A DNA stretch of 64,000 bases from Prosopocoilus inquinatus (lineage: Eukaryota; Arthropoda; Insecta; Coleoptera; Lucanidae). This document shows positions 3,652-48,546 of this stretch, in pieces. Each line of letters starts with the position of its first letter. Position 1 is the stretch's first letter. The notes below the pieces were generated by a model, which saw nothing but the letters and a program-made list of their open reading frames with translations, did no database searches and had not been told where the DNA came from. The stretch covers positions 34,937,001 to 35,001,000 of the forward strand of contig CM069876.1 in NCBI GenBank assembly GCA_036172665.1, read 5' to 3'. Both the position numbers and the translations under genes were made by a program.

Positions 3652-4127
3652 CTGCAAGAAGAAAATCTGTCAGAATTTGGGTACGTACAAACACTTCTGG
3701 AAAGGAATCTGCAAGTTACTTAATCCAACGCAGAATTAAACATTTGTTCCAAAAATAAATAAAACGAAATTAAATGTAACGGTAAGAAATGTAAAGCTAG
3801 ATAATAAGAGGATTTACTTACCTAACATTTGTTTTGTTTTAAGAACTACTCATCGTTTTATAGATGTACACTTATAATATATGACGTATACAATTCAGAT
3901 ACCATGCCATCATAACTTCTGAATTTTCAGAATCAATAAATGACTCGAGTTTAGTAACACCCTATACACAGGAACCTAATAAGGCATTGAGGATCGTTTC
4001 CGGTTTCTTCTTCATCACACAGTTTCACGAGGGGGATAATTTTAAGAAGAGAAAAAAAAACCATTTTAGAATTTAAATAATTTATTTTGAACTTTTCGCC
4101 CTCTTGGATTCAACGAGACGAGATCCA

Positions 4128-4309
4128 CTATAGCTTGTATTTGTGTTTAATTAAGCAATGGGCCTTTACGGTGCACTTATGAGTGAATCGCTTTCCACAA
4201 ATGGGGCATTCAAACTGAGGCTCCTGTCCACATTCGTACTTTAAATGCCTGCGCAATTCCGACATGCGGCCGTATTGTCTCGAGCACTTATGGCAGGGAT
4301 GCTTTTGAA
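4128..4309 (-). CDS. lola: lola alternative last exon, finger pair
   Basis: Short 60-residue tail with almost nothing before finger 1. Finger 1: C6, C9, H22, C27; finger 2: C35, C38, H51, H56. The linker is CGQEPQFEC. The acceptor is TTTCAGTTTCAG, a doubled motif, so the earlier AG six bases upstream is a possible alternative that would add two codons. AATAAA is at 4081-4086 (minus). There is no usable ATG at its start, so it makes sense only as a spliced exon. Confidence 0.88.
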
Positions 4310-4329
4310 CTGAAACTGAAAGAAGTTAG

Positions 4330-4690
4330 ATCAGTTAAGGGCGGCGCAGTTATGGACGTCATCGATGGCAACAGGGTTGCAAAAAATTCCCCTAAACGTC
4401 TGTGATATTGAGATTGGAGCAGCGGTAATTGACGGTTTACGGCCCCAACGTTAAGGCAGCGTAGATTGGAGGGAGGTCTAGCGGAATTTTTACCGTATTG
4501 ATTGATGAAAAATCCATAAGAAATAACAAAGGGGTCGCAGATTGCAAGTTACGACGAAAAAATTGTTCTGAAATCTAGCAAATAGGATGCAAATTATAGT
4601 TTTCAGATAATTGTGCGCCACTCGCCTATGTAGTTTGCAACCCCCCTCCCCCATGTTATTTCTTATGAAGTTTTGATTCTGAAAGTACGT
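4330..4690. repeat. dispersed repeat, GATTGGAGGGAGGTCTAGCGG family
   Basis: A segment with GCAGCGGTAATTGACGG and TTGGAGGGAGGTCTAGCGG recurs at 18755-18830, 57850-57950 and, more diverged, 60105-60175. Confidence 0.55.
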
Positions 4691-4880
4691 TTCCCTTTTG
4701 GCGTTTCACACAACACAAAAAAAAGAACTGTTGTTTTCATCACGCCTGCATCGAAAAGAAATTTCTCGAAATAAAACAACCACTTACTTATTTTATTTAA
4801 TTTTTGATTCATTCTTTCGCTTATTTTCTATCGAGGGTGGAAATGGTCATGATGAAAAACGGCGCAAAGTTTTATATCGT

Positions 4881-5083
4881 TTATTTCGTTAGTGATTCAA
4901 GGGCGGCTTGGCCATGTTTAATGAAGATGTGCTTCTTCAAGTCGTGCTTCCTTTTGCTTCTGAACAAGCAGTGAGTGCAGGCGAACTTCCTGATTTCCTG
5001 GCCGCAGTCTAGCGCCAGGTGAACTTTCAGGGAATTTCTATTTTTGTATATCTTTTTGCAGTTGGGGCACACCTGTTTCATAT
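4881..5083 (-). CDS. lola: lola alternative last exon, finger pair
   Basis: Encodes 67 residues. Finger 1: C6, C9, H22, C27; finger 2: C36, C39, H52, H57. The linker is one residue longer than usual (CGQEIRKFAC) and finger 2 is very basic (RSKRKHDLKK). The acceptor is CGTTCCAG. The stop codon sits inside the sequence AAATAAA, so a canonical AATAAA hexamer (4880-4885) overlaps the stop. Confidence 0.88.
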
Positions 5084-5508
5084 CTGGAACGAAGCGTGTT
5101 TCAGTGACATGATAATATTACAACGCCTGGTGGATAGGCCACCAGTAAATCAGAGACGAATGACTCTCCGCGCCGGCGCCGTAGTAAACGTCGAACCTCG
5201 TGGTTCTCGAACCGATTAGAGCAAACTTCGCGTGATTCTCGAACCGAAAGTATCCGATTGTAAAAGCAGAAGTGCGCGCGGCTTTTAATTTAATTTAATT
5301 TTCAATTTAATTAATACAACGAACGGAGAGCTTATGAAAAGTTATCCTTTTGAGTTCAAATCGAGATAAAAGCGAATGGCTTTGAAAATAAATCAAATTA
5401 ACATGGATTCATGTTGTCAAAACCGCAAATAAAAGGGTATTATTTATTTTAATAAAATATATAACAATTACACATCTTTTTAGTAATTTCCAAGGCGCTG
5501 ATTCTATC

Positions 5509-5714
5509 TCAAAGAATTTTGTAATCGTCGCAACTGTCTAACATTTTGTGCATGGTCCCGTAGTGCACCTTCAGGTTATATTTTCTGTTCGTTTTGTATC
5601 CGCACAACGTGCACACGCATTTTTTGGGCTTGCCGCAATCGTACTTTAGGTGAGTCCAGAGGGTCTTCTCGTTTTTGTAAAACTTTGCGCATCCGGGACA
5701 AGACAGTTTCATCC
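5509..5714 (-). CDS. lola: lola alternative last exon, finger pair
   Basis: Encodes 68 residues. Finger 1: C6, C9, H22, C27; finger 2: C35, C38, H51, H56. The linker is CGKPKKCVC, with an extra Cys at 33 in place of the usual aromatic. The acceptor is TTAATTTCAG and the stop is TGA. AATAAA is at 5443-5448 (minus). The 190-base gap to the next exon downstream (5905-6104 lies upstream in transcription) is short, so this is part of a compact cluster. Confidence 0.88.
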
Positions 5715-5904
5715 CTGAAATTAAAAGTAGTTACCGAGGGTGGTGGTAGCCTATTGTCATCCATCCAGAGAAGGCCTTACGTGAAGATAACTTATGCATC
5801 TTAAAAATAGTTCAGGGGTACCCTGTATAATACTCAAAACAATTTTTTCGTAATTCAATTTTTATTTCGCAGCACGTAATTCCAGGCAAGAATTTGTTAA
5901 AGAA

Positions 5905-6104
5905 TTAATTAAAGTTTCTTTTGAGGATTTGTTGATGAACCATGGCATAATGTCGTTTTATGTTCGAGTACTGTTTGGACTTGCGATTGCAATCTTCGAC
6001 TGGACACTTGAACATGGGCTGCTTCCCACACTCGTACTTTCTATGCCTCCAGAGGGATCTGCTTCGCTTGTAGGTTTTTCCGCAAAGATTGCAGATGTGA
6101 TCAC
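5905..6104 (-). CDS. lola: lola alternative last exon, finger pair
   Basis: Encodes 66 residues. Finger 1: C5, C8, H21, C26; finger 2 has the longer C-x4-C form with C34, C39, H52, H57. The linker is CGKQPMFKC. The acceptor is GGTAATTGCAG. AATAAA is at 5861-5866 (minus), 39 bases past the stop. It has no internal ATG before the fingers and is hidden behind a long but meaningless plus-strand frame. Finger 2 type (PVEDCNRKSK) groups it with the exons at 7351, 13331 and 20248. Confidence 0.88.
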
Positions 6105-6380
6105 CTGCAATTACCTCACGGTTAAAGTCGTGAATTCGAAATCGATTCGTGAAATTATGGATTCGATTAGGTACGGATCAATCCTCCTCTTATTTAATAT
6201 TCTTTATTACAACAGAATAAATGCAACACATTAACTACCGACTTCAAAAATTATTATTTACAAACTCGCTTCATACAACTTAACAAACTAGTTTTTTTAA
6301 AACTTAAGCTTAACATACATGCACAAGTTAAAATAGCAAACCCAGTTTCCACCCCTAAAGCGACGACATTGGAAGGTCCG

Positions 6381-6637
6381 TCAATAATAATCCTTGAAGT
6401 CCAGCTCCGTGTGGTACCTCACGAAGCAGTTGCCGGGATGTAGCCCGGGCTTCCGCGAGCAAGTCCGGCACTGGTAGACGGTCACGTGCCTCCTGCCCTT
6501 GATGTTGCGATTGCTGCAAACGGCGCAGTCTTTCGCTTTTCCGGACTTCCAGATGCGATGAGGTTTTCCGTTCAGCCTCTCGATTCTCTCCTTTCGCGTG
6601 AACCGCCCGTATCTTTTAAAAGACGCCGCTATCACAT
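6381..6637 (-). CDS. lola: lola alternative last exon encoding a piggyBac-type zinc ribbon
   Basis: Encodes 85 residues: a basic helix-like lead (FTRKERIERLNGKPHRIW) and then a Cys/His domain with C38-x2-C41, C57-x2-C60, C71-x4-H76 and the motifs CAVC, YQCRTC, KPGL, CF and YHT. Order and spacing match the C-terminal zinc ribbon of piggyBac transposases (R-L-x-G lead, C-x2-C, Y-x-C-x2-C, P-G-L, C-F-x2-Y-H-T). It follows a clean acceptor (TTTTTGTTTTTAG) in the same splice phase as the finger exons and has AATAAA at 6203-6208. No transposase DDE core or terminal repeats are seen nearby. I infer an exonised transposase domain used as a Lola tail; a decayed insertion whose frame and phase match by chance is the alternative. 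Confidence 0.72.
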
Positions 6638-6991
6638 CTAAAAACAAAAAGAAAATGAAGGGCGCGCTCTTTTTTTTCTTGGGTTCGGTTTGAGAATTGC
6701 AGGTGAGGTCAAGTAAGTCAAGCGCTCCCAAGTCAAAACCTTTTTTTTGAATTTGATGAAAAAAAAAGAAAGGATAATTTGAATTTACCGCGTAAATTTA
6801 AACGTCAACTAAAAATATGGCGCCAAATTCAAACTATCCTCAATCATTAAAAATCATACTATACATAAAAGAGTGTTTTTTTTTTTACTTTGTCGTGATA
6901 ATTTTAAAGAAAAAGAATCAGGAGTATCATTAACCATCGAAAAGCATTCAATTTTTAGGAGATTCCAATCAGTTTTGGCTTAATGAATTAC

Positions 6992-7149
6992 CTACAAAGG
7001 AAGGATGAAAGTCTGTAACTCAAAAGTGTGGCGTAAGATACGAAGAACATCAGGCGTCTGCCCGAAGATGACTTTTAAGCACAAAACAAGTACGAACTTG
7101 TAAAGATTGGACACTTCTTGACGGTTAACAAGCACCATGGTTCTCTTTT
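6992..7149 (-). CDS. possible non-finger last exon, unrecognised product
   Basis: After the acceptor-like sequence AATGTATTTCAG, the frame in the array's usual phase stays open for 52 residues to a TAG at 6992-6994; the other two frames stop sooner. The product is hydrophobic (LYKFVLVLCLKVIF, then LRILRHTFEL) and has no Cys pairs. I recognise no family. It could be a short tail exon, an extra exon before the piggyBac-ribbon exon, or chance. Confidence 0.22.
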
Positions 7150-7350
7150 CTGAAATACATTAAATATAAAAAAAAAATTTGTTTATGATTTGGTTTACGT
7201 GGCCCAAATTTTGCAGAAGTCAAACCAAAATCACACTTGGTCAAAATAAATTATTAGTATTTTCTAAAATAAAAAAAAAATATCAAATCAATATTTATTC
7301 AAACGCGCCAGATAATTAATCACAATACATATTCGCCAAAAGCGGGGCGA

Positions 7351-7589
7351 TTAAATATTACTAATTGGTTCCCATGGAATGTGATCCTTGTGCTTGTTCG
7401 CTATGTGGTGCTTTATATTGATCTTTATTTTTGATTTCTGATTGCAACCGGGCACCGGACAGGAAAATTGGGGTTCCTTTCCGCACTCGTACCGTTTGTG
7501 ATTATACAGGGACTGCTGGTGTTTGTATCTTTTGTTGCACGTATTGCACGCAAAAGGCTTGCCTTCACTGCCATAGTAACTCGCCCTAC
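7351..7589 (-). CDS. lola: lola alternative last exon, finger pair
   Basis: Encodes 79 residues with a 14-residue lead. Finger 1: C15, C18, H31, C36; finger 2: C44-x4-C49, H62, H67. The linker is the canonical CGKEPQFSC. The acceptor is ATATTTTTCAG and the stop is TAA. AATAAA is at 7294-7299 (minus). Finger 2 resembles those of 5905 and 13331, suggesting old duplications. Confidence 0.9.
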
Positions 7590-9050
7590 CTGAAAAATAT
7601 AAATCGTCAGTCACGAACAAATAAATAATTTTCAGTACCGAAATAAACTGAAAAATAATCATACTTGTACTATACCATATTTTTTTATATGTTACTGTAA
7701 CTAAAGGCTGTTTTGCATTAAGTCTGTCTTACATTATCATATAAAATGATACCAGAAAAAGGTAAAAAAAGGCGTAAAACAATAAAACAAATTATGGTAC
7801 CGTAAAATCGTACAGAAACAGATGTATTTGAGTCCAGTTCATAACATTTCTTTGCTAATATTTTTTTGGTAAGTACTATTTTCTCGTAACAGAAATTAGT
7901 ATAACGTAAAATAGCCTTTACACTAATTTATTAGCTGCGTTCCTTTTGCCACAAATCTTATCTCAAATCACATAAACGTTATTTCCGTTGACATGAATAA
8001 GTAAGTTTGTACTGGGATGGCACTCCCATTAGATTCAAATACATTCAAATTTACTTGTTCGTCCTAACGGGTATGACGTGCATCTGATCTGAAGTGAGAT
8101 TTTTGTTGCAAGAGGAAGACACGTATAGTGTACGAGGAAATAGTATCAATAAATATTACGAAACGAACCAAATACATCTGTTTTTATAATATTTTATGGT
8201 AATGTAATTTGTTTTACTGTTTTAAACTGCCCTACAAATTGATTTACCTTTTATATGATAAGGTACAACGGCGATGCTTTCGGGCGCTTCGAACGAGCTA
8301 ACTCCACTCTTAATTGTATCGGGGAAAACGAAAATTCATTCACAGAGAAACTTGCCGCAAATAAATACTTGTAACGTTTGGGATGGTAAACAGTTCTGCG
8401 CTATCGCCCATCAATGACGTAATATAAGCTTAAAATAAAAAGTAGAGGCTGGCTGACCTCGCATCAAAAACCTTTTTATCTTGTATACATCTTTCCTCCA
8501 TCAATAACTGGAGTTCGTCGCTTTCCAAACTGTTAAATATAACAAGTACGCGTGTTATCTTTAGAGAACGGTGAATAACGTGATACTCTGATTCAATGCA
8601 TAAGACAAAGAGAGACATTTTCTCTGCGTTAGATATGCGTAAGAGAAAGAGGGAGGCAAGCATTCGTCCAACCATAGACAGATTGTATTCCTCTTTTGTA
8701 AAAGAGTCCTCCTGTAAAATAAGTCACTTAAATGTATGTACAGTATGTCTGTTAATGTCCGTACGCCGATTAAGTTGGTATGCATGCAAGTTGATCAACT
8801 TGTAGAGGAAAAACATGCTGCTTGCGTCAATTCTGAGAGGGTTCATTGGCGGTTCGTTAATTTTATTTTCTCGCTGGTCTTGCAGAATATTCATGATATG
8901 TTCATTTTACAATTTTCATCGGACAAGAGTCAACTTTCATATAAATCAACCTTTATATAAATGTATCATTTACTGCGGTTACATCCTTTTATTCAAAATA
9001 TTTTGTTAAAAGTGCCAGGTTGCAGCCAGATACAATGTGACTTGTACTAT

Positions 9051-34604: not shown

Positions 34605-34723
34605 TTATAAATCGGATGCTTCTATTAATCCAGCCGCTATTCTTGTTTTTGCCTTAACCAGCCAATGTTTCATGACACGTTCTATTTCGGATTCTTCTGC
34701 GTTTTGCATTTTCATGACAGCAG
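34605..34723 (-). CDS. DUF4806-like module, exon 4 (C-terminus)
   Basis: Encodes the last 39 residues, including ESEIERVMKHWLVKAKTR, which matches the end of the DUF4806 domain (acidic stretch, E-x-x-I/V, W-L, A-x-x-R). The acceptor is TTGTTTTTCAG. Its phase (two bases to complete a codon) fits only if exon 3 ends after AAAAG at 34775. ATTAAA, a variant poly(A) signal, follows on the minus strand near 34574. The stop is TAA. Confidence 0.72.
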
Positions 34724-34774
34724 CTGAAAAACAAGTAACTTCCAGCAAGTGTTTGGAAGAAGATTGATACTTGC

Positions 34775-34934
34775 CTTTTATAGCCTTCGCCAACAACAGA
34801 CACCCAAACACCTTCTTCCTTTTCCAGCCAATCCAGCTATAACCCTGAGCAAACCTGTTTGTTACCACCTTCTGCATCATCTTCCTAGTGGTGTCCTGGG
34901 CCGTAACCCCACGTATCTGACAAAGTTCCTCCAC
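34775..34934 (-). CDS. DUF4806-like module, exon 3
   Basis: Encodes 53 residues starting VEELCQIRGV and including the region between the LV-x-x-L-x-x-I-x-G motif and G-x-x-x-W-x-G-W-K-x-K-x-F-x-x-L, characteristic of DUF4806. It starts in phase 0 after TGTAG. No GT donor keeps the reading frame, but AAAAG|GCAAGT is a strong GC-type donor that joins perfectly to exon 4. The 51-base intron is a multiple of three without a stop, so retaining it would add 17 residues. Confidence 0.74.
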
Positions 34935-34983
34935 CTACAATTCACATCGGATTTAACGAAACACACCAATCCTCCTCACCTAC

Positions 34984-35195
34984 CAATTTGTTGTAATGCT
35001 CCTCGCGAAATAAATAGTCTTCAAGCTGTTGCAACTCCTCGTCGGAATCCAGCGGAAACTTGAACCTCATGAATATGGCCCTCTGAACGCTGCTGAAATC
35101 CTCCTTGTTTTCCACGAGCAAATTCATGTCGCGCTGCAGGTGGAAAACCCGCGTGTTTAGCAGGTTTAGAAGCCTCAGGGTTTCCGATTCAAACT
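34984..35195 (-). CDS. DUF4806-like module, exon 2 (coiled coil and domain start)
   Basis: 212 bases. Begins in phase 1 and ends in phase 0 at TTG|GTAGGT. The first half (LRLLNLLNTRVFHLQRDMN) has heptad spacing of Leu/Val typical of the coiled coil before DUF4806. The second half (FKFPLDSDEELQQLEDYL) matches the domain's start: F-P-L, E-E-L, L-E-x-x-L. This is the firmest evidence for the family assignment, made by recognition and not by a search. Confidence 0.76.
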
Positions 35196-35255
35196 CTAAA
35201 ACATCAGAGTTTAAACACAGCCATACATTAGCTATTCCTAATGGGTGCTAAATAC

Positions 35256-41384: not shown

Positions 41385-41584
41385 TCATTGGATTTGTTCC
41401 AAGTGCTTCCGGAAGGTGTGCGAGTACAAATGCTGCTTGAAATAAAACTTCTTTTCGCAGAAACGACATTGAAGCTTCTTCTCTTTACTGCACTGTACTC
41501 GAATGTGCCTCAAAAGATTGTGCTTCATCGTGTAACACCTGTTGCAGGTCTCGCATTGATAGGGGTGAGTTTCGCTGAGCTTTC
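41385..41584 (-). CDS. lola: lola alternative last exon, finger pair (type B, copy 1)
   Basis: Encodes 66 residues. Finger 1: C11, C14, H27, C32; finger 2: C40, C43, H56, H61. The linker is CSKEKKLQC. It is a close paralogue of the exon at 44529, sharing SETHPYQCET, RHIRVQC and EKKFYFKQ. The conserved base-contact region of finger 2 suggests both bind related sites. The acceptor is CTGTTTTTAG. Confidence 0.9.
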
Positions 41585-44528: not shown

Positions 44529-44734
44529 TCATTCGATACGATCCACATGTTTCCGAAAGGTGTGCGAGTACAAGTCCTGCTTGAAATAAAACTTCTTTTC
44601 ACAGAAGGGACATTGCAACTTCTTTTCTTTGCCGCATTGCACGCGTATGTGCCTCAAGAGGTTCTGCTTCAACGTGTAACACCTGTAGCACGTCTCACAT
44701 TGATACGGGTGAGTCTCACTGATTGTGTGTTTTC
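44529..44734 (-). CDS. lola: lola alternative last exon, finger pair (type B, copy 2)
   Basis: Encodes 68 residues. Finger 1: C13, C16, H29, C34; finger 2: C42, C45, H58, H63. The linker is CGKEKKLQC. It differs from the 41385 exon mainly in its first residues, in finger 1 helix positions (TLKQNLL versus TMKHNLL) and in the second finger (KQDLYSH versus KQHLYSH). The acceptor is GAATTTGTTTTTAG. Confidence 0.91.
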
Positions 44735-47968: not shown

Positions 47969-48546
47969 TCAAGTAGCACTGGTCGTGGCGGCGGAACCAG
48001 TTTTCTTCTTGTGCGTAGTCTCGACGTGCACCTCAATCTCGTGGATGTCGGCGTGCTTGAAATTGCAAGAAGCGCATGCGTACTTGTGCTGCTCGGAGAC
48101 CGTCTTCTTGCACTCCTTCAGGTGTTCGTTCCTCTTCACGCGCTCGTAGAGGACCCCGCACGCCGTGCAACGAATGGTGTCCTTCGGCGCCTTCAGCAAC
48201 TTGATGTCTCTTTCGCACGCGTAGGTCTTAGGAGAGGGACGCGGTAGATCCGCCCGGGTCATCCTCAAGAACCTCTTCATTCTCTCCTTTGAGATGTAGT
48301 TGGTCGCCTTGACGGTGGCCTTCGAGGTGGCAGACGCGTCCAATTTCTTGTCGGATGAGGTCGCTTCGGTTTTCGGGTCGCCCTTCTGGATGACCAGCTT
48401 GAACTTGGGCAGCTTCACCAGGGCGATCTTGCCGCGCGATTCAAGGACGGCCTTGCGCTTTTCCATGCGCTTCGAGGCCGCGCCTCGCGGTGCCTGCACC
48501 GTCTCCACCTTCATGATTTTTATCTGCTGGTCCTCATGAGGACTGT
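47969..48546 (-). CDS. lola: lola alternative last exon with long basic lead and finger pair
   Basis: Encodes 192 residues, about three times the usual tail. Residues 2-110 are Lys/Ala/Ser/Thr-rich and disordered-looking; a basic patch (ISKERMKRFLRMTR) follows at 85-98. Finger 1 is compact: C127, C130, H142, C146 (C-x2-C-x11-H-x3-C); finger 2: C158, C161, H174, H179. The acceptor is CTCTTTCTAG. Its coding is markedly GC-rich compared with neighbours and it lacks the KYECGKEP linker, so it is an old, distinct isoform. No close AATAAA is seen. Confidence 0.88.

Follow-up and report, generated by a model that had tools for sequence, protein, structure and literature searches.

A predicted last exon of lola with a piggyBac-type zinc domain, and a diverged second copy, in a large insect tail array

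The lola locus and its array of terminal exons

The stretch of DNA analysed here (the window, 64,000 nucleotides) corresponds to C8:34937001-35001000 of a 650-Mb genome and holds 26 tails, that is terminal exons with a pair of C2H2 fingers, together with one further exon, referred to as the ribbon exon. The shared part of lola was located with the BTB stretch of Drosophila Lola as genome query. This gave 49 matches, of which the two most similar (88 and 81% identity) adjoin each other at C8:35220573-35219103 and share the chromosome and strand of the array. Other BTB loci score more bits than these pieces, since the whole BTB domain lies in one exon there. Three shared lola exons could be read on the minus strand at C8:35220573-35217925. 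The last of them ends in phase 1 at C8:35217925 (...AAQEAVGAHRDSQ/G, where the slash marks a codon or splice boundary) and its donor reads ...GACTCTCAAG/GTAGG.

The array is confined to one strand. Across the 167,240 bases read from the region, which within the ≈150 kb at C8:35021000-35171000 include L027 and the unanalysed L069, the finger-pair pattern has 67 matches on the minus strand and none on the plus strand. Exon GC content is 0.545 vs. 0.346 for the window. As a whole the array covers C8:34917001-35220573 (≈300 kb). It contains 67 or more C2H2 finger pairs within the 167 kb that were read and is comparable to the expansions reported for Hymenoptera, where Nasonia has ≈180 terminal exons over 350 kb and Apis has 58 (PMC5000498). 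That paper reports no equally large lola array outside Hymenoptera, a statement that the present array contradicts if the host insect is a beetle. A search for the telomere repeat TCAGG in six tandem copies found no match. In the fly, lola has 20 isoforms, 17 with C2H2 fingers and 3 without (PMC11426971; PMC5127561); paired C2H2 fingers are thus not strictly required of a Lola tail.

Several other features were seen within the array. Two very similar finger exons (window 41385-41584 and 44529-44734, minus strand) are probably a recent tail duplication and suggest a way in which tails multiply. An unusually long tail candidate (window 47969-48546, minus strand, 578 nt, GC3 0.79) has irregular Cys/His spacing; it matches no Pfam family over the cut-off, and there is no good acceptor close to its Cys motif. 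At window 34605-35247 (minus strand) two adjoining open frames, lying in different frames, appear to be the remains of a gene or element that has decayed within the array; one has a sub-threshold DUF4806 match (14.5 bits of 25). Finally, between shared lola exons 2 and 3 (L023:7126-7410, minus strand) there is an open frame that encodes an HTH_psq domain (25.3 bits, cut-off 20.4) and whose acceptor fits the phase-1 donor of shared exon 2. It is perhaps another non-C2H2 Lola tail of transposase-like ancestry.

Structure of the ribbon exon

The ribbon exon, its signals and its surroundings are as follows (window coordinates unless chromosome C8 is given).

7351..7589, minus strand: neighbouring lola C2H2 tail exon, upstream in transcription, acceptor less certain
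6638..6655, minus strand: polypyrimidine tract and AG acceptor (ttttctttttgtttttag) of the ribbon exon, 12.1 bits
6381..6637, minus strand: ribbon tail exon, predicted alternative last exon of lola (junction codon G/AT, 84 codons and TGA)
6411..6560, minus strand: piggyBac-type Cys/His core H26-C37-C40-C56-C59-H66-C70-H75, all eight also in the second copy
6383-6381, minus strand: TGA stop of the ribbon exon
6203..6208, minus strand: AATAAA poly(A) signal of the ribbon exon, 172 nt past the stop
5905..6104, minus strand: neighbouring lola C2H2 tail exon, downstream in transcription
C8:35065348-35065095, minus strand: second complete ribbon exon, in L027, with a C2H2 tail on either side

The exon is 257 nt long, runs from 6637 to 6381 and is open throughout. 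A sequence-only reading had described its coordinates, strand, acceptor, splice phase, stop and poly(A) signal, and on re-reading of the sequence all of these were as described. Its acceptor junction is ttttctttttgtttttag/AT, so that the exon opens with two bases followed by whole codons; joined to the single G at the end of the last shared exon, AT completes an Asp codon. Although the shared BTB exons are ≈274 kb away, the ribbon exon lies downstream of them on the same strand and, by sequence, in frame.

The acceptor was scored with a matrix built on 21 of the 26 finger exons in the window, five being omitted as the exon or the automatic choice of acceptor was doubtful. Its 12.1 bits compare with an array median of 10.4 (leave-one-out; range -1.4 to 17.1), and just 0.6% of the window's 3245 minus-strand AGs equal or exceed it. 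When acceptors were scanned with no phase imposed, the highest-scoring one of the ribbon exon was that in the lola phase. The same scan, over 160 nt before the first Cys, placed the best acceptor in the lola phase for 24 of the 26 finger exons and for both ribbons. One exception, an irregular finger exon at 48169, lacks a good acceptor in this interval; the other is the neighbour of the ribbon exon at 7548, where the lola-phase acceptors score 6.8 and 6.7 vs. 8.5 in another phase.

The ribbon exon thus has the strand, acceptor, phase, stop, poly(A) signal and array position of a lola alternative terminal exon, and the earlier claim that it fits the array, in strand, phase, acceptor and position between C2H2 exons, holds. 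What it lacks is the pair of C2H2 fingers usual in lola tails, and its Cys/His layout differs from theirs. The open frame extends back to 6797 (139 codons including the stop) and contains no Met, nor does that of the second ribbon (115 codons including the stop), so an upstream exon is required. Transposase-derived host genes exist, and the frame might instead be part of an independent small gene, domesticated within the lola locus, that has a first exon of its own and is unconnected to the Lola tails. Such a gene is highly unlikely here: the frame needs an upstream exon, its phase and acceptor agree with the array, and each of the two copies, which are flanked by C2H2 tails and separated by ≈122 kb, would have to have a private first exon.

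A piggyBac-type zinc domain

The sequence-only reading compared the exon with the C-terminal ribbon of piggyBac transposases on the strength of six residues. All six are present, as C37-C40, C56-C59 and C70-H75 in the 84-aa numbering used here; the earlier numbers were one higher, as the junction codon had been counted. Two further likely ligands had been overlooked, H26 (in RLNGKPH) and H66 (in GLHPGNCF). The complete set of likely ligands (H26, C37, C40, C56, C59, H66, C70 and H75) is thus one His followed by seven Cys/His, and this order matches, in both copies, the layout given for piggyBat and PiggyMac (PMC8086355). The piggyBat domain also carries the motif LHxGxCFxxYHT, as does the ribbon. 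In piggyBat and PiggyMac the domain sits in a DDE transposase, whereas the lola ribbon has none.

For a quantitative comparison, 14 distinct C-terminal domains were picked by Cys/His pattern from the piggyBac loci of this genome, and a profile was made from eight of them. The window ribbon scores 38.4 bits against this profile and the second ribbon 44.8 bits, while the best of 2000 shuffles that preserved Cys and His reached 23.8 and 21.4 bits, respectively; full shuffles of the window ribbon gave 13.0 bits at best. The second copy also passes the Pfam family zf-Tnp_2 (PF13842) with 30.4 bits (cut-off 24). The search against the transposase ribbon family, which had been proposed as a check, therefore came out differently for the two copies, as a direct Pfam scan of the window copy alone found no zf-Tnp_2 match at E ≤ 1; that copy is called piggyBac-type only via its paralogue and the genome-derived profile. 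With the profile score well over the shuffle maximum and the second copy over the Pfam cut-off, the claim of a piggyBac-type zinc domain stands. Neither ribbon is among the 45 places listed by the genome-wide zf-Tnp_2 search, in which a first-look subset was scored. Since the second copy passes the direct scan, that list is incomplete.

Structural databases point in the same direction. In a phmmer search of the PDB with the window copy, piggyBat came first of five matches up to E 1, although weakly (E 0.03), and with a profile of the two copies it was the only match at E ≤ 1 (E 9e-4). A single-sequence AlphaFold2 model of the ribbon had a mean pLDDT of 48.8, too low to inform on a zinc-bound cross-brace fold.

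These searches also bear on whether the exon could be a genuine Lola tail whose zinc motif arose independently or came from another family (zf-UBR, C1 or the IS1595 ribbon) and merely resembles piggyBac. The weak Pfam matches of the window copy, all below cut-off, are indeed to Fer4_11, zf-UBR and Zn_ribbon_IS1595, with none to zf-Tnp_2. The second copy, however, is below the cut-offs for zf-UBR (16.8/25.2), Zn_ribbon_IS1595 (15.8/25.4) and C1 (13.0/26.5) and above that for zf-Tnp_2, the piggyBac-tail profile scores exceed those of the shuffles, and piggyBat is the only PDB match of the two-copy profile. A source other than piggyBac is scarcely credible on these results.

Two diverged copies under constraint

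The second ribbon was located by searching the genome with the first (C8:35065098-35065337, 70% identity). The two exons lie ≈122 kb apart in the same array, on the same strand and in the same phase. The second has the acceptor ...ctcttgttttag/GT (10.8 bits), a TGA stop and an AATAAA downstream, and in each ribbon the distance from the acceptor to the first Cys codon is exactly 110 nt. In the proteins 56 of 80 aligned residues are identical. All eight likely ligands are kept, whereas H50, the one remaining His of the window copy, is not.

The differences are concentrated in third codon positions (16, 15 and 41 at positions 1, 2 and 3), with pN 0.171 and pS 0.729; as pS is near saturation, the resulting dN/dS of 0.07 is only rough. 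When the same 72 changes were placed at random, none of 2000 neutral simulations gave a pN/pS as low as that observed, and at most 47 residues were kept, compared with the 56 observed. The sequence-only reading had taken the undamaged frame as a sign of selection. An intact frame alone is insufficient for this, and it is the paralogous exon that supports selection.

Between the two loci there is a single strong DNA match, which lies within the exon (E 1e-30), the next having E 0.005. A block duplication together with neighbouring finger exons was not seen: the finger exons flanking ribbon 1 and ribbon 2 are only 37–43% alike, whereas the pair beside ribbon 1 share 57% with each other. A recent insertion of a transposable element is rejected, given that a second copy exists, that the two have diverged mostly at third positions and that no element remnants were found. 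We read the two ribbons as the probable outcome of a single exonisation event, followed by an ancient duplication and prolonged purifying selection. There could instead have been two captures of sister elements, with the constraint partly older than capture, but the shared acceptor position argues against two separate captures.

No transposase core found at the locus

The ribbon exon had been described as having no DDE core nearby, and tblastn of window 4000-9000 indeed found none; nor was a piggyBac DDE core found around the second copy in L027. The queries were open frames from the piggyBac loci of the genome, 104 in number and each 120 codons or longer. They gave 77 matches with E ≤ 1 on 4000-9000 and L027. 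Of these, 60 hit one or other ribbon exon; the remaining 17 lie elsewhere and have E 0.08 at best. The ribbon exon therefore lacks the DDE core beside the zinc domain that marks an autonomous piggyBac, and none of the at least 116 piggyBac core matches listed genome-wide lies in the lola locus.

Searching the genome with the ribbon exon gave 13 places (22 candidates scored): the exon itself, the second ribbon and 11 piggyBac-type tails. These 11, all of which are also in the zf-Tnp_2 list, have only 40–43% identity to the ribbon (E ≈0.003), and five of them adjoin a listed DDE core. As far as the genome was searched, then, the exon is not part of a full current piggyBac copy elsewhere. Relatives were found neither in viral contigs (75 pattern matches) nor in phage records.

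A piggyBac copy with a 596-codon open frame lies 60 kb below the window start (L025, C8:34876062-34877132). As donor of the ribbon it is ruled out by its other C-terminal Cys layout (CHFC...CVIC...CSDH...CIEC). The distance from the last His to the end of the protein is 9 and 8 residues in the ribbons, 7 in the L039-L041 piggyBac family and 2 in other families, which we infer to be compatible with a native transposase stop in the ribbons.

Given that the genome has at least 116 matches to the piggyBac core, including one so close to the window, the ribbon could be unused debris, a piggyBac fragment that landed in the array beside a cryptic acceptor and was never joined to lola. This is very improbable, since the two copies agree in acceptor position and phase, the protein is conserved though third positions have strongly diverged, element remnants were found around neither copy, the closest piggyBac tails in the genome are just 40–43% identical, and the nearby L025 element has a different Cys layout.

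Proposed origin and comparison with known systems

Taken together, the segment is probably an alternative last exon of lola, as predicted from its sequence, with a C-terminal zinc domain of the piggyBac transposase type that was likely captured once, was likely duplicated within the array and likely gives one Lola isoform a transposase-derived DNA- or chromatin-binding end. Under this reading a lola transcript would consist of the BTB exons followed by the long array of terminal exons, and the phase-1 end of the shared exon would join any tail that opens with two bases, presumably by cis or trans splicing. A piggyBac element inserted in sense orientation would have contributed the last ≈75 codons of its transposase, probably with their own stop; an acceptor just upstream would have made the fragment a lola tail, and the catalytic core would have been lost. 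The exon would then have been copied like other tails and both copies retained under purifying selection.

Large lola arrays, as in Nasonia and Apis, are already known, as are transposase-derived terminal exons, foremost CSB-PGBD3, the closest precedent. There, in intron 5 of the human ERCC6/CSB gene, a piggyBac sequence serves as alternative 3′ terminal exon of a host chromatin gene; this exon has its own acceptor and poly(A) signal and is conserved in primates (PMC2268245; PMC3459987). In contrast to the whole transposase and single copy of CSB-PGBD3, the lola ribbon comprises the C-terminal zinc domain alone, in two diverged copies among dozens of alternative tails, and CSB-PGBD3 is known from a transcript while the ribbon is known here from genomic sequence. 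piggyBac has been described as a natural 3′ "exon trap", its transposase frame being closely preceded by an acceptor and closely followed by a poly(A) signal (PMC2268245), and the lola ribbon resembles a shorter version in which only the C-terminal domain was retained.

In the lola genes of Nasonia, Apis and Drosophila one hub exon likewise joins many terminal exons. No piggyBac-type tail was seen for them in the excerpted texts of PMC5000498, PMC11426971 and PMC5127561, a comparison outside which the three finger-less fly isoforms stand. Nor was a piggyBac domain in lola seen among the literature matches listed, which were openly licensed papers, and term searches of the main text of two surveys of transposon-derived or transposon-fused proteins (PMC10027918; PMC12062965) found no mention of lola.

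A parallel exists in mod(mdg4) of Drosophila, a different gene with a different tail domain. That domain, FLYWCH, is transposase-related. The gene too has a BTB hub, with at least 30 isoforms, most of them FLYWCH, made by trans-splicing (PMC11426971).

Possible function and implications

The predicted product is a multimer of the BTB/TTK type in which a basic zinc cross-brace would replace the paired C2H2 fingers and recognise a set of sites particular to it. In solution the BTB domain of Lola assembles into hexamers (PMC11426971), and the ribbon isoform would therefore carry several basic zinc domains. What these would contact is less certain, as Cys/His layout does not predict the substrate (PMC8086355). 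It is a real though tentative possibility that the piggyBac-derived tail now contacts histones or other proteins and binds no DNA, a variant that shares the proposed origin as a Lola tail. Domains of PiggyMac and Tpb2 with the same Cys/His layout contact the H3 tail, that of PiggyMac does not bind DNA in vitro, and contact with H3 is also made by PgmL domains that differ in pI (PMC8086355). Against this, the Cys-to-His cores of both ribbons are strongly basic (pI 10.1 and 9.7), above the 8.3–9.3 of the 14 piggyBac tails of this genome, whereas the PiggyMac finger is acidic (5.48) and the DNA-binding domain of piggyBac is positively charged (PMC8086355). DNA binding is thus favoured over histone contact, and from core charge we lean modestly towards a ribbon that binds DNA.

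A bolder proposal is that the hub-and-tail array of lola acts as a trap for foreign DNA-binding domains, in which the piggyBac zinc domain was captured and copied, and that the resulting BTB-multimer repressors recognise piggyBac ends or sites spread by them, giving a transposon-built regulatory or silencing network under a core neural transcription factor. We regard this full chain as unlikely, if conceivable.

Exon arrays like those of lola and mod(mdg4) exchange one zinc-finger tail for another and so diversify regulators, which raises the question of how new kinds of tail enter them. With a tail that is likely transposon-derived and a diverged second copy in the same array, capture, duplication and constraint can be read from sequence. 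The ribbon would also allow a minimal, naturally occurring test of the role of a piggyBac zinc domain once freed of its catalytic core, whether it binds transposon ends, chromatin or something new. If the proposed origin is true, a part of a transposon would have been reused to direct a gene regulator to new sites in the genome.
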